Source: Chitinophagaceae bacterium (GTDB lineage Bacteria > Bacteroidota > Bacteroidia > Chitinophagales > Chitinophagaceae). Taken from it: a stretch of 64,000 nt of DNA. The translations under genes and the position numbers were made by a program. Location: contig SEAC01000015.1 of the NCBI GenBank assembly GCA_004173235.1, positions 186,001 through 250,000 of the forward strand, in the 5' to 3' direction. Positions 5,485 through 62,322 of this stretch are shown here, piece after piece (the stretch's first letter is position 1; each line of letters begins with the position of its first letter). Under the pieces are notes generated by a model. It was not told where the DNA came from and made no database searches. It saw only the letters and a program-made list of their open reading frames with translations.

Positions 5485-6552
5485 ATGGCTAAATATCAAC
5501 CCGGGGTGCTTTTCGGCGACGAGCTTCAGGCCCTGTACCAGGATGCGAAGGACAACGGATTCGCCCTGCCCGCTGTAAACACCATCGGCACCAATAGCAT
5601 CAATGCAACGCTCGAAACCGCCGCCAAGGTGGGCTCCCCGGTGATCATCCAGTTCTCAAACGGCGGTGCGCAGTTCATCGCCGGCAAGGGAATGCCCAAC
5701 AAAGAGCTGCAGGGAAATATCTCCGGCGCCGTGTCGGGAGCCCTCCACATTCACAACGTGGCAAAGCATTACGGCGTTCCCGTGGTGCTGCACACCGACC
5801 ACGCAGCTCATAAGTGGCTGCCCTGGGTGTCGGGCATGATCGATGCAGGTGAAATCTTTTTCCGCGAGAAAGGCCAGCCGCTTTTCAGCTCGCACATGCT
5901 CGATCTATCCGAAGAACCGCTCGAAGAAAATATCGCGACCTCAGTGGAATTCTACAAGCGCATGGCTCCGCTCGGCATGGGCATCGAGATCGAGCTCGGT
6001 GTGACCGGCGGTGAAGAAGACGGCGTGGACAATAGCGGCGTTGACAACGAAAAACTGTATACGCAACCCCGCGAAGTAGCCTACGCATTCGACGCGCTGC
6101 GCAAGGTGGGACCGATGTTCACCATCGCGGCTGCTTTTGGAAACGTGCACGGTGTGTACAAGCCGGGCAACGTAGAGTTGCGCCCCGACATCCTGCGCAA
6201 CAGCCAGGAGTATATCCAGAAAGAATTCGCAACCGGCGACAAGCCCGTTTACTTCGTATTCCATGGCGGAAGCGGCTCGCCGCAAAACCAGATCCGCGAG
6301 GCCATCAGCTATGGTGCCATCAAGATGAATATCGACACCGACCTCCAGTGGGCTTATTGGGAAGGTGTGCTCGAATTCTACAAGGCCAACGAAGCCTTCC
6401 TGCAAGGGCAACTTGGCAATCCCGAAGGCGCCGATAAGCCCAACAAAAAGTATTACGACCCGCGTGTGTGGCAGCGCAAGGGCGAAGAGCAATTCAGCAA
6501 GCGCCTCGAGCAGGCCTTTGAAGATCTGAACTGCATTGGCCGCAACTCCTAA
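5485..6552 (+). CDS. fbaA: class II fructose-bisphosphate aldolase
   Basis: 355 residues from ATG 5485 (MAKYQPGVLFGDEL). The protein follows E. coli FbaA-type class IIA aldolases along its whole length: zinc ligands in LHTDHAAHK, the ELGVTGGEEDGVDNS segment, FGNVHGVYKPGNV, FHGGSGS and KMNIDTDLQWA, ending in NKKYYDPRVW. It catalyses the reversible cleavage of fructose-1,6-bisphosphate to dihydroxyacetone phosphate and glyceraldehyde-3-phosphate in glycolysis and gluconeogenesis, cytoplasmic, zinc dependent. An earlier in-frame start at 5425 would place the start in the terminator stem and is rejected. The gene is bounded by terminators on both sides and appears monocistronic. Confidence 0.97.
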   Translation: MAKYQPGVLFGDELQALYQDAKDNGFALPAVNTIGTNSINATLETAAKVGSPVIIQFSNGGAQFIAGKGMPNKELQGNISGAVSGALHIHNVAKHYGVPVVLHTDHAAHKWLPWVSGMIDAGEIFFREKGQPLFSSHMLDLSEEPLEENIATSVEFYKRMAPLGMGIEIELGVTGGEEDGVDNSGVDNEKLYTQPREVAYAFDALRKVGPMFTIAAAFGNVHGVYKPGNVELRPDILRNSQEYIQKEFATGDKPVYFVFHGGSGSPQNQIREAISYGAIKMNIDTDLQWAYWEGVLEFYKANEAFLQGQLGNPEGADKPNKKYYDPRVWQRKGEEQFSKRLEQAFEDLNCIGRNS

Positions 6553-6619
6553 ATAGGAAGGCCCGGGAAAAATACGTTTTCTTAAAATCGTATGGCATGT
6601 CCCGGGCCGTCCTATTTTT
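6552..6619 (+). terminator. long bipartite hairpin terminator after aldolase
   Basis: A 17-base arm at 6552-6568 (starting AATAGGAAGGCC) pairs with 6600-6616, 16 of 17 positions matching; an inner 5-bp stem (ATACG 6572-6576, CGTAT 6589-6593) extends it. Five T residues at 6615-6619 follow. The arm begins in the aldolase stop codon. Confidence 0.75.
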
Positions 6620-58349: not shown

Positions 58350-60275
58350 ATGATCCCGATCCGACCCCGAGGGCAGCGGTCATTCATTTCGCTGCTCCTG
58401 ATGCTGTGCACGCTCGGCTCCGCTGCCCAGCCACCGTCCCTTTCGGTGGACTCGATGCTGCGCGCCCTTCCCGGGCTCATGCGCACCAACGAAGCGCGTG
58501 CGCGGCAAATGATTGCGAGCCTGGAGCAACAATCGGCTGCGCAGCGGCACGGCCACGGGTTGGTGCAGGCTGCATTCTTCCGGGCCTGGCTCAGCTACCG
58601 CCACGAAGCGCCGGAGCGCGCCATTGAAAGAATTGACAGCGCTTTACAAAAGATAGTTGGTATCGACCGCGATACCGCCCTCGTGAAATTCTACATACTC
58701 AAGGGACAGTGCTACGTGAAGAAAGCAGCGTTTGAGCAGGCGCTTGCGCAGTTCAACAATGCGCTTCGCGTGGCGCGGCAGCGCGGCGATGCGGCGAGCG
58801 CCACCAGCACGCTCATCAGCATTGGCTGGGCATACATGGAAAGCGGGAAGCCCCTCGATGCCATCCGCTTTTTTGATGAAGTGCTCCAGTTGAACCCGTC
58901 ACCGCAGTACGAAAACCGCGCTGTGTTGTTGTGCAATAAAGCCTCCTGTTACAATATGATCGGCGATTTTCGAAAAGCCGAAGAGTTTGCGCGGATGGGC
59001 ATAGCGGTTGCGCGCAGCCGGGACAGCCACATCGATCTGGGCAACGGCTTAAACATCCTCGGGCGAAGCTATTACATGCAGGGGCGGCTTTCCGAGGCCC
59101 TGGCGCTGCTGCAGGAGGCTGCACTCACCCGCGAAAAGATCGCTGACCCATCGATGCTTGCTTCCGACTACCTCGAACTGGCCGACCTTTTTCAAAAGAC
59201 CGGAAACTACCAGCAGGCGGTGCGCTGGGCAAGCAAATCGGAGCAGCTCAGTGCGCGCCTGGGCAACTACCTCAAACTAGCCGATGCGTACAAGGCACTT
59301 TCGGAGAACTACGAAGCGATGGGCAATAGCGCCATGGCGGCATCTTATCTGAAGAAGCTATTGGCGCAACGCGATAGCGTGGAGGCCGACCGGTATAACA
59401 GGGCCTTCGCGGAAATGCAGGTGAAATTCGAAACGCAGAAAAAAACCACCGAGAACCTGCTGCTCAAGAAAGAGAACCTCGAGGCCCGTCTGCGCAACAG
59501 CCAGCAGCAGCGCCTGCTTTTTCTCCTCGGCGGAGTGACGCTCCTGCTGGTAGCTTCAGGTATCTACGTCTCTAAATTGATGAAAAGCCGTTACCAGACC
59601 CGTCTCGCGCTGGAAGCAATGGAAGAACAACGCAAACGCAGCCTTGCAGTGATGCAGGCCGAAGAAGCGGAACGTCGCCGTATTGCGGGCGAACTGCATG
59701 ATGGGGTTGCGCAGACACTGGCGGCAGCCGGAATGCAACTGGCAAAGGCGCGCTCCGGCCAGCCCACACTTGCGCGCGTGGATGAATTGCTGGGGCAGGC
59801 AGGGGCGGAGATCCGCTCGCTGTCACACCAGGTGACGCCCGAGCTCCTGCTGCACTTCGGGCTTGCAAAAGCAATGGCGCAAACGATCAATGAGTTGAAT
59901 GATGCCAGCGACAAGCTTCACTTTTCGCTCTTCACCCACGTGGACGAACCGCTTCACGACGATCTCCTTTCGCTCGCCCTTTACCGCTCTTTCCAGGAAT
60001 TGTGTAACAACATACTGAAGCACTCCACGGCCACCGAAGCAACGGTGCAACTGACCACTGATCGCGAGGAAGTGCAATTGCTGGTGGAAGACAACGGCAA
60101 GGGCTTTGACCCAGGTAAAGTGGCCGAAGGCCTTGGACTTAAGAATCTGCAAAGTCGTATCGCCTTTTTTGATGGAACTGTCTCGGTGGACAGTACGCCC
60201 GGGCGGGGAACGACCGTAATTATACAAGTGCAGCTGCCGCTAGGCGGGCGTACGGAAACAAAAAATGCTGACTGA
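58350..60275 (+). CDS. TPR-domain sensor histidine kinase (HisKA_3 type)
   Basis: 641 residues. Signal peptide (SLLLMLCTLGSAAQ), about 300 residues of TPR repeats in the periplasm (for example AYMESGKPLDAIRFFDEVLQLNPS), one membrane helix (LLFLLGGVTLLLVASGIYV, about 390-408), a coiled coil and the HisKA_3 phospho-acceptor region with H450 in RRIAGELHDGVAQTLAA. The ATPase part has ELCNNILKHS, DNGKGFD and GLGLKNL. This is the NarX/DegS-like class that pairs with NarL-type regulators; the regulator follows with an overlapping start. The signal is unknown. Confidence 0.94.
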   Translation: MIPIRPRGQRSFISLLLMLCTLGSAAQPPSLSVDSMLRALPGLMRTNEARARQMIASLEQQSAAQRHGHGLVQAAFFRAWLSYRHEAPERAIERIDSALQKIVGIDRDTALVKFYILKGQCYVKKAAFEQALAQFNNALRVARQRGDAASATSTLISIGWAYMESGKPLDAIRFFDEVLQLNPSPQYENRAVLLCNKASCYNMIGDFRKAEEFARMGIAVARSRDSHIDLGNGLNILGRSYYMQGRLSEALALLQEAALTREKIADPSMLASDYLELADLFQKTGNYQQAVRWASKSEQLSARLGNYLKLADAYKALSENYEAMGNSAMAASYLKKLLAQRDSVEADRYNRAFAEMQVKFETQKKTTENLLLKKENLEARLRNSQQQRLLFLLGGVTLLLVASGIYVSKLMKSRYQTRLALEAMEEQRKRSLAVMQAEEAERRRIAGELHDGVAQTLAAAGMQLAKARSGQPTLARVDELLGQAGAEIRSLSHQVTPELLLHFGLAKAMAQTINELNDASDKLHFSLFTHVDEPLHDDLLSLALYRSFQELCNNILKHSTATEATVQLTTDREEVQLLVEDNGKGFDPGKVAEGLGLKNLQSRIAFFDGTVSVDSTPGRGTTVIIQVQLPLGGRTETKNAD

Positions 60276-60912
60276 TATGGGGCACATCAGTGTTGTATTG
60301 GTGGACGATCATGAAATCCTGCTCGATGGCATCGCGTCCATCCTCGGCGATCAGCCGGGCATCCGCATCGTAGGCAAGGCATCATCCGCAGAGGCCGCAG
60401 AAGCGCTTGTAGAACAGTTTCATCCCGATGTACTGATCACGGATGTAAGTATGGGTGGCCGCTCCGGGCTTTGGCTTACAGAAGAAGTGCGTGCCCGCTT
60501 CCCGCTCACCAGGATCATCGTTCTTTCGATGCACGATGGCGTGCAACACATACACAGCCTGCTTGAAGCCGGCGCCGACGGCTATCTGCTGAAGAGCGTA
60601 AAGCAGGAAGAATTGTTACAGGCAATCAGCAAAGTGATGGCTGGTGAGCAGTACCTGCAGCAATCCCTTGCACCATCGTACGCGCGCGCACTTCGCCAAC
60701 AGCAGGATGCGGAGCAGCAGAGTACGCTATCGCCACGCGAGATCGAAATATTACGGCTCGTGGTTCAGGGCCATTCCACTGCGGAGATCAGCGCACGGCT
60801 TTATTTGTCCGAGATGACCGTAAAGACGCACCGCAAGAACATTGGTCGCAAAACCGGCGCTAAAACGCCGCTCAGCCTGGCGCGGTATGCCGGAGACAAC
60901 GGGCTGATGTGA
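60265..60912 (+). CDS. NarL-family response regulator
   Basis: 215 residues from ATG 60265, overlapping the kinase stop by 11 bases (an alternative start is at 60277). Receiver domain with D14/D15, phospho-acceptor D60 in VLITDVSMGG and K110 in YLLKSV; LuxR-type helix-turn-helix (SPREIEILRLVVQGHSTAEI and LSEMTVKTHRKNI). Cognate to the preceding kinase. The next gene downstream starts inside a perfect hairpin and may belong to its regulon, which is inference. Confidence 0.95.
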   Translation: MLTDMGHISVVLVDDHEILLDGIASILGDQPGIRIVGKASSAEAAEALVEQFHPDVLITDVSMGGRSGLWLTEEVRARFPLTRIIVLSMHDGVQHIHSLLEAGADGYLLKSVKQEELLQAISKVMAGEQYLQQSLAPSYARALRQQQDAEQQSTLSPREIEILRLVVQGHSTAEISARLYLSEMTVKTHRKNIGRKTGAKTPLSLARYAGDNGLM

Positions 60913-60954
60913 CGAAGTACTTTACCTACTGCGAGGTATTGAACACACGGCAGG

Positions 60955-60994
60955 CATATGCGTCTTTTGTGCTCACCCACAAAAGACGCATATG
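60955..60994 (+). promoter_or_regulatory. perfect 17-bp hairpin covering a start codon
   Basis: CATATGCGTCTTTTGTG (60955-60971) is complementary to 60978-60994 without a mismatch, with a 6-base loop (CTCACC). The last three bases of the right arm are the ATG of the gene at 60992. An A-run, not a T-run, follows on the plus strand, so a terminator for the plus strand is unlikely. Confidence 0.75.
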
Positions 60995-61714
60995 AAAAAA
61001 AATCTTCTCTCCCGCATTCTCTGTTTCCTCACCGTGATCGCGTTGTCGCTTGCCATGCCGACTAATGCTGTGGCACAAACGCGCGACGAGATTATTCACT
61101 CCAGCTATTTCGTAGCCTTCGGCCGCTATGCCAACGCAGGCGAGCTCGCCTACTGGCGGCAGAACGTCGGCAACCGCGACATCAAGCAGATGGTGCAGAA
61201 CCATAAGCAATACCTGGCTTCCAACCAAAGCGAGCGCGAACAGGCCGTGAAGCGTTCTTTCAACGATGCCTTTGGCTGGAATCCAGGCAGCGACGAACTG
61301 CGCCAGTGGTCGGCAAAGGGACAGACCTATGCCGAGATGATGAATTACCACATCAACCAGTGGCTCAACGTCTACTCCGACCGCAAGGCGCACGTGATCA
61401 AGCAATCGTATTACAAAGTATTCAACCGCACGGCCGATGCGAATGAGCTGCGCTACTGGATGTCGCAGCCAACCTGCTCGTTCGTGCAACTGGTGGCGAT
61501 GCATACCACCTGGAAGCAGCAAAACCAGCGCACTTCAAAAATGGGTCGCATGAATCCGAACATCCGCGACAACGGCGTGTCGACAGCCGCACTAAGCAGC
61601 GGTGCCGCTGCGGGCGTAGTAGCCGCGGGAGGCATGAACCTCATATCGCCCAGCGGTGGACAGGTAGTGGCGGCCGGCGGACTGAACGTGATTGCGCCTG
61701 GTGGCGGCAATTGA
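60992..61714 (+). CDS. exported protein with three DUF4214-like repeats
   Basis: 240 residues. Signal peptide MKKNLLSRILCFLTVIALSL ending near AVAQ. Three repeats of about 45-50 residues follow, with the DUF4214-like pattern SYF-x-AFGR-x-ANAGELAYW, SFNDAFGWNPGSDELRQW and SYYKVFNRTADANELRYW. The C-terminus is low-complexity Gly/Ala/Val (SSGAAAGVVAAGG). The start codon lies in the hairpin at 60955 and no Shine-Dalgarno sequence is seen. DUF4214 occurs in surface and adhesion proteins; the present role is unknown. Adjacent to the response regulator gene, 79 bases away. Confidence 0.78.
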   Translation: MKKNLLSRILCFLTVIALSLAMPTNAVAQTRDEIIHSSYFVAFGRYANAGELAYWRQNVGNRDIKQMVQNHKQYLASNQSEREQAVKRSFNDAFGWNPGSDELRQWSAKGQTYAEMMNYHINQWLNVYSDRKAHVIKQSYYKVFNRTADANELRYWMSQPTCSFVQLVAMHTTWKQQNQRTSKMGRMNPNIRDNGVSTAALSSGAAAGVVAAGGMNLISPSGGQVVAAGGLNVIAPGGGN

Positions 61715-61753: not shown

Positions 61754-62194
61754 ATGATCAGGATATTCTCGCTACTCCCGGCCCTTGCGCTTCTTGCCTG
61801 TGCCGATGGCGCTGCCGAACGTAATACAGATGCCGCACCCACTGCACCTGTCAAACGCTATCGCGGCGCCATTTCGAACGGAATGAAAGGCGACTCGCTG
61901 TTCTTCGAAATTTCGCCCGATGGCAGGCAGTTGCGGAACCTCACCTTTAAAGGATACTGGCGTTGCAGCGGAAGGCTGGAGCAAACAACTGTCGGCCCCG
62001 AAGGAAGCTTCGCAGTTGTAGGTGGGAAGGCAAAAGGTCATCTCGCCGAGCCTCCCGGGGGCGGCTCCACTGCGTGGCGCTTTGAAATAGATGCGAGCAT
62101 TAGCAGGACGACAGCTGCGGGGACCTTCCGGATGAACATCAACAACCTTGGTTGCGATACCTACTTGTTGAAGTGGACCGCTACAACCTACTGA
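61754..62194 (+). CDS. small lipoprotein of unknown function
   Basis: 146 residues with a lipoprotein signal (MIRIFSLLPALALLAC, lipobox ALLAC). The mature part is a beta-rich stretch with a repeated polar/hydrophobic alternation (GDSLFFEISPDGRQLRNLTF, WRFEIDASISRTTAAGTFRM) and two Cys (YWRCSG and LGCDTYL). No domain recognised. It lies 39 bases after the DUF4214-like gene on the same strand and probably belongs to the same transcript, ended by the terminator at 62293. Confidence 0.65.
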   Translation: MIRIFSLLPALALLACADGAAERNTDAAPTAPVKRYRGAISNGMKGDSLFFEISPDGRQLRNLTFKGYWRCSGRLEQTTVGPEGSFAVVGGKAKGHLAEPPGGGSTAWRFEIDASISRTTAAGTFRMNINNLGCDTYLLKWTATTY

Positions 62195-62292
62195 CCTGTC
62201 GCCCGCCTCTGAGATTTTTCGGCAGCGCGCACATTGAGCACAACGCGCTGCCTGAGTCGTCCAACCAACTGAAAGCTTCATTTTTGGAAGCG

Positions 62293-62322
62293 AACCCTCC
62301 GCAATGGAGGGTTTTCGTTTTT
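62293..62322 (+). terminator. intrinsic terminator after lipoprotein gene
   Basis: AACCCTCC (62293-62300) and GGAGGGTT (62306-62313) form a perfect 8-bp stem with a 5-base loop, followed by TTCGTTTTT. It lies 98 bases after the lipoprotein stop. Confidence 0.75.

Follow-up and report, generated by a model that had tools for sequence, protein, structure and literature searches.

The start codon of a gene for a secreted-looking protein in a Chitinophagaceae bacterium is embedded in a perfect hairpin whose other arm appears to contain part of the gene's own promoter. The best reading of this arrangement, which we favour with moderate confidence and which is built on sequence comparison and folding calculations, is that a regulator-activated promoter lies inside the hairpin and that the hairpin would silence only RNA reading through from the operon upstream. 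In the window, that is, the whole 64,000-nucleotide stretch of DNA that was analysed (the features between 58350 and 62314 named below lie on its + strand), the hairpin consists of a left arm (60955–60971), a loop of 6 nt (60972–60977) and a right arm (60978–60994). The arms measure 17 nt each and are 100% complementary, the ATG (60992–60994) of the open reading frame (ORF) at 60992–61714 forms the last bases of the right arm, and eight A residues follow directly 3′ of it. The initial annotation had already pointed to a perfect 17-bp hairpin with a 6-base loop ending in the ATG and followed by an A-run, and in these respects it was accurate. It had also remarked on the missing Shine-Dalgarno sequence, and we likewise saw none by eye before the ATG at 60992; according to the available account, such sequences are naturally absent in Bacteroidetes (PMC6847099).

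The hairpin stands out in its own genome. No other perfect inverted repeat with a loop of 3–12 nt reaches its length in a 464,000-base sample made up of the window and 20 further stretches from the same contig. The runners-up have arms of 16, 15 and then four times 14 nt, several of the next-longest being GC-rich and terminator-like by eye, and in three first-order Markov replicas the longest perfect inverted repeat did not exceed 12. The region 60913–61060 folds with a z-score of −5.14, none of 200 shuffles being equally stable. A search of the genome with 16 of the 17 bases of the arm found no second exact copy. The idea that the hairpin is a dispersed repeat was tried and rejected: allowing up to three mismatches, the arm matches 22 places in its own genome (both arms counted) versus 30 for the reversed control. 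Elsewhere in the window, a near-perfect 18-nt inverted repeat (6551–6617; 94%, 31 nt apart) overlaps the crude ORF start at 6597.

The setting of the gene is that of a regulatory operon followed by its possible target. According to Pfam matches, the upstream genes encode a TPR-containing sensor histidine kinase (HisKA_3 and HATPase_c; 58350–60275) and a LuxR/NarL-type response regulator (Response_reg and GerE; 60265–60912), the presumed activator. For the + strand, the listing of terminator-like sites has no entry from 60912 to 60992, and because of this lack of a recognisable terminator between the regulator and the gene we infer that read-through occurs. The product of the gene itself (60992–61714), characterized by a profile match and alignments, is a protein of 240 aa with a signal-peptide-like N-terminus, as seen by eye, a Gly-rich C-terminal tail and a sub-threshold match to DUF4214 (22.4 bits versus the cut-off of 23.2); neither an NCBIfam match nor a sequence relative in the PDB was found for it. 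Since the protein of the sister species (G010) aligns from residue 1 with 76% identity, ATG 60992 is probably the true start codon. Next comes a lipoprotein-like ORF (61754–62194) that has no Pfam or NCBIfam match and has a similar ORF as its counterpart in G010, and a terminator-like stem taken from the terminator listing (62292–62314) possibly marks the end of the unit. In G010, an additional ORF (L010:2260–3099), with a DUF4214-like N-terminal part and cysteine peptidase-like by eye, lies between the two downstream genes. A tail of NVIAAGGGN-like repeats is common to the C-termini of the window protein and of its relatives at L010, L056, L057, L058 and L059, as well as L028 and L029.

Between the regulator and the gene, three elements together look like an activated promoter of the Bacteroidota type. 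The first is a predicted regulator site at 60923–60938, a 7-2-7 dyad TACCTAC-TG-CGAGGTA, which resembles NarL sites in form and position as these are given in PMC4549865. It deviates by two mismatches from a perfect dyad, whereas the dyad of G010 is perfect. The second is TTG (60939–60941), the predicted −33 element, conserved in G010 and replaced by TTT in the homologous loci of G215 and G435. The third, separated from the dyad by exactly 23 nt here and in G010, G215 and G435, is GTCTTTTG (60962–60969), the predicted −7 box, which keeps TTTG of the consensus TAnnTTTG and lacks its TA. A Bacteroidetes promoter consensus of TTTG/TANNTTTG at −33/−7 has been deduced (PMC6847099), and for Flavobacterium psychrophilum TAnnTTTG is reported at −12 to −5, with a median leader of 24 nt (PMC9723704). 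Given the −7-like box at 60962–60969 and the position of TAnnTTTG in those mapped promoters, transcription very probably starts at about 60974, within the loop, which would give a leader of 18 nt. Counted from this predicted start, the dyad covers −51 to −36 with its centre at −43.5, so that the NarL-like placement near −43 of its inverted heptamers, with two bases between them, holds to the extent that the start does. The left arm would then be promoter DNA that is not transcribed from the gene's own promoter, and the right arm would supply the leader and the start codon. The right arm also contains a mirrored −7 box; no matching −33 element for an opposite-strand promoter was seen by eye.

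Comparison with relatives suggests that the dyad and its spacing are what has been retained. The closest relative is represented by contig NZ_SJZI01000050.1 of Flaviaestuariibacter flavus (Chitinophagaceae), and G010, the sister species, belongs to the same genus as the window. The intergenic region of G010 retains two blocks, TTTACCTAC....AGGTATTGA and TCTTTTGT..[C/T]TCACCCACAAAAG, separated by a spacer that has diverged in sequence and is of equal length. The first block corresponds to the 7-2-7 dyad and the second opens with the −7-like box. The stem in G010 is reduced to a 7-bp core, CTTTTGT/ACAAAAG, with the outer nine pairs absent. We examined the upstream DNA of eight homologues (the window, G010, G215, G435, G107, G363, G304 and G193), leaving the part-length relatives L011–L013 and L028–L030 out of the dyad count. 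TACC-N8-GGTA is present in five of the eight, and in four of them NNNTTTTG follows at exactly 23 nt despite diverged spacers; in G107 the dyad is found at 22 nt. All four homologues that adjoin a kinase/LuxR-type regulator pair, representing two genera, have the exact 23-nt spacing between dyad and −7 box. The dyad is absent from the 260 nt upstream of the homologues in G363, G304 and G193, the last of which contains an in-frame stop. Near the homologues of G107, G304 and G363, no LuxR-type regulator was seen by eye among ORFs of at least 150 aa in 11.8–14 kb, and in G363 kinase/receiver ORFs of another type lie 2–5 kb away. The pair is divergently arranged in G215 and G435, where the regulators are 34–35% identical to that of the window and, as read from translations, the sensor part of the kinase differs. 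It is of the membrane type at these loci (L061, L067) and of the TPR type in the window (58350–60912); gene order varies as well, while dyad and spacing stay constant. Across the 18 genomes of the genus, the dyad plus TTG occurs at 21 places, and reading of the flanks placed copies before this gene only in the window and G010. G012 encodes a regulator 63% identical to that of the window, and its 3.6-kb locus contains no TACC-N8-GGTA.

The same combination of elements recurs throughout the family. The composite TACC-N8-GGTATT-N24-TTTTG was found at 143 places, some of them within coding sequence, in 100 of 394 Chitinophagaceae genomes, versus 13 places for the reversed pattern. In these 394 genomes, TACC-N8-GGTATT with TTTTG at a fixed distance (L071–L100) thus outnumbers its reversed control by a factor of about eleven. 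When the gap was left free in a scan of 107 genomes, the spacing of 23 nt, set before that scan, was the peak, accounting for 21 among the 150 places listed (Poisson P ~4e-6); among the same places the other 20 spacings averaged 6.45, the next peaks being 14 nt (14 places) and 22 and 31 nt (11 each). Because the dyad alone, with up to three mismatches, is not enriched (94+94 versus 121+121), only the composite that includes the −7 box is informative. The composite thus probably represents a promoter module of the NarL-activated type that is widespread in Chitinophagaceae.

What the hairpin does to translation would depend on where the RNA begins. According to the folding calculations, opening positions −10 to +9 around the start codon costs 16.7–21.2 kcal/mol in RNA with both arms and 1.8–2.3 kcal/mol in RNA starting at 60972–60978; in the long transcript the computed probability that the ATG is unpaired is 0.00–0.02. 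Ranked against 338 starts, taken as crude longest-ATG ORFs with contexts of 80 nt versus 17 nt upstream, the gene is first in the long-minus-short difference (19.1, with a median of 0.8 and a 95% quantile of 6.3) and fourth in the long context alone. The top opening energy among the 338, 25.1 kcal/mol, belongs to the crude ORF start at 6597, and this ORF may be false. The initial annotation had the hairpin blocking initiation; by these energies this would hold for RNA containing both arms and is unlikely for the main transcript, which is predicted to start at about 60974. For RNA that reads through from the kinase-regulator operon, sequestration thus remains plausible, and if such RNA is made, the stem is likely to block its translation. 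In the homologous loci, the long and short opening energies are 7.4–10.4 versus about 3.4 in G010, 6.1–7.5 versus 3.4 in G435 and 1.9–2.5 versus 1.2 in G215, and there is no difference in G107. On these figures, read-through RNA would be silenced strongly in the window and less so in the codirectional sister species, with little or no effect in the two divergent homologues. The pattern fits a filter against read-through and, with two loci versus two, is weak evidence for it. We further read 31 composite loci (30 from the family scan and that of G435), 10 of which, including the window, have a nearby ORF start; the 'coding' label of such loci is unreliable and marks the window site too. Among these 10, a large long/short difference was found only in the window (18.2, the next being 5.6), and read-through silencing is therefore not a general feature of the dyad/−7 module.

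Taken together, the proposed course of events would be as follows. The adjacent LuxR-type response regulator would bind the 7-2-7 dyad and activate a promoter whose −7 box sits in the left arm. Transcription would begin in the loop, at about 60974, and the regulated mRNA, with its 18-nt leader and no left arm, would expose the start codon. Any RNA reading through from the kinase-regulator operon would carry both arms, and its start codon would be folded shut. A comparable arrangement is known from IS10 and IS50, where the initiation region is covered by a fold in read-through RNA and left free in native RNA, although the genes there are transposases at the ends of insertion sequences. In a closer parallel, the long transcripts of phage T4 gene e and I-TevI are described as folding over the initiation region, while RNA made from the late promoters lacks the 5′ half, an effect that amounts to about 100-fold for gene e (PMC3014915, PMC2988022). 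Like these, the present gene would be translated solely from RNA started at its own activated promoter: by computation a long transcript would hide the initiation region, and a gene-adjacent promoter, here a predicted one, would give the translated RNA that lacks the 5′ half. However, those are phage genes with a late sigma factor and Shine-Dalgarno sites, whereas here a response-regulator operon precedes a bacterial gene that has no Shine-Dalgarno sequence, and the stem contains the predicted −7 box. As to the regulator site, the accessible description of NarL places 7-2-7 sites at −40 to −49 (napF) and −38 to −47 (yeaR) and gives TACCCCTAAAGGGGTA as an engineered site (PMC4549865). The window dyad has the form of the latter and the position of the former. 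It shares with the E. coli sites the TACC-N8-GGTA pattern, a centre at about −43 and a LuxR/NarL-type regulator, but it is a predicted site in another phylum and promoter type, and the half-sites here are TACCTAC or TACCGAC. The promoter, in turn, resembles the −33/−7 promoters of Bacteroidetes as reported (PMC6847099, PMC9723704) in having TTG and TTTTG about 20 nt apart, a short leader and no Shine-Dalgarno sequence; it differs in that its −7 box lacks TA and overlaps a hairpin arm. Literature searches returned no fitting title or abstract for a similar case in Bacteroidota, which is not proof of absence.

The main rival explanation accepts the same promoter and regards the perfect stem as having arisen neutrally. 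An inverted repeat of 7–8 bp would have existed earlier, and a template switch there during replication would have copied the right arm onto a poorly constrained promoter spacer, producing a stem that has no selected role and may still silence read-through. We consider this rather unlikely, even though the core found in G010 without the outer nine pairs could represent such an older repeat and the unchanged distance between dyad and −7 box in the window is what one would expect if spacer bases had been replaced in place. Template switching is reported to create perfect stems in one event (PMC8794818) and accounts for the origin without requiring a function; moreover, no other composite promoter that we inspected has a long stem. 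A selected role is favoured by the exact coincidence of the end of the stem with the start codon and by the location of the gene: the operon before it has no recognisable terminator, and silencing would be of use there. Since the 18 genomes compared within the genus include only one close relative, the direction of the stem change cannot be told. That selection has kept the stem for read-through silencing is a proposition to which we give slightly less than an even chance.

Other explanations fare considerably worse. The initial annotation had proposed a translational switch controlled by temperature, a regulator or antisense RNA. In the form considered here, the main start of transcription would lie before 60955, and the hairpin would govern translation in response to temperature, a ligand, a protein or an antisense RNA. 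The very stable fold of RNA that includes the left arm agrees with this proposal, but a switch on the main transcript is unlikely because the predicted main transcript lacks that arm. A start downstream of 60971, an outcome that the initial annotation itself had regarded as telling against its switch, is just what the dyad/−33/−7 promoter with its cross-genus spacing predicts. In addition, a perfect 17-bp stem of about 21 kcal/mol would be hard to open by temperature, the window has no Rfam matches at gathering scores, and the sister species does without the long stem, so that we regard such a switch as improbable. Its suggested link to the response regulator is supported, albeit as a transcriptional one through the NarL-like site instead of a post-transcriptional one. 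A role for the repeat at the DNA level, as an operator spanning the start site and recognised by a repressor or some other regulator, also seems quite doubtful. Small repeats mirroring the −7 box were found near the predicted start in G010 (7 bp; L014), G435 (TTTTGTT-TG-AACAAAA; L065) and G268 (TAGTTTTG-CCC-CAAAACTA; L092), and they could be taken as traces of an operator, yet their arms and loops vary, most inspected composite promoters have only 2–6 bp there, and the arm has no second exact copy in the genome. CAAA after −7 boxes was also rejected as a general motif, occurring in one of 10 promoter-like sites (found among 335 crude gene starts) versus 1.04 in shuffles. Finally, the position of the hairpin just downstream of the regulator gene might suggest an intrinsic terminator ending the regulator operon, but the stem is followed by eight A instead of a T run, and the listing of terminator-like sites does not include it for either strand, while the flanking dyad and its exact spacing oppose a spurious insertion by misassembly; either possibility is hardly credible.

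Returning to the regulator-activated promoter inside the hairpin, we tentatively suggest, at somewhat below even confidence, that it may serve as a filter of transcript origin for a cellular gene without a Shine-Dalgarno sequence, making output strictly dependent on the activated regulator. To our knowledge, few regulatory sites have been mapped in Chitinophagaceae, and the NarL-like dyad, with its −7 box at a constant distance of 23 nt, would offer a testable promoter module for this family. Should our reading hold, it would illustrate how a target gene that immediately follows its regulator operon, with no terminator between them, may stay silent until the regulator is active.
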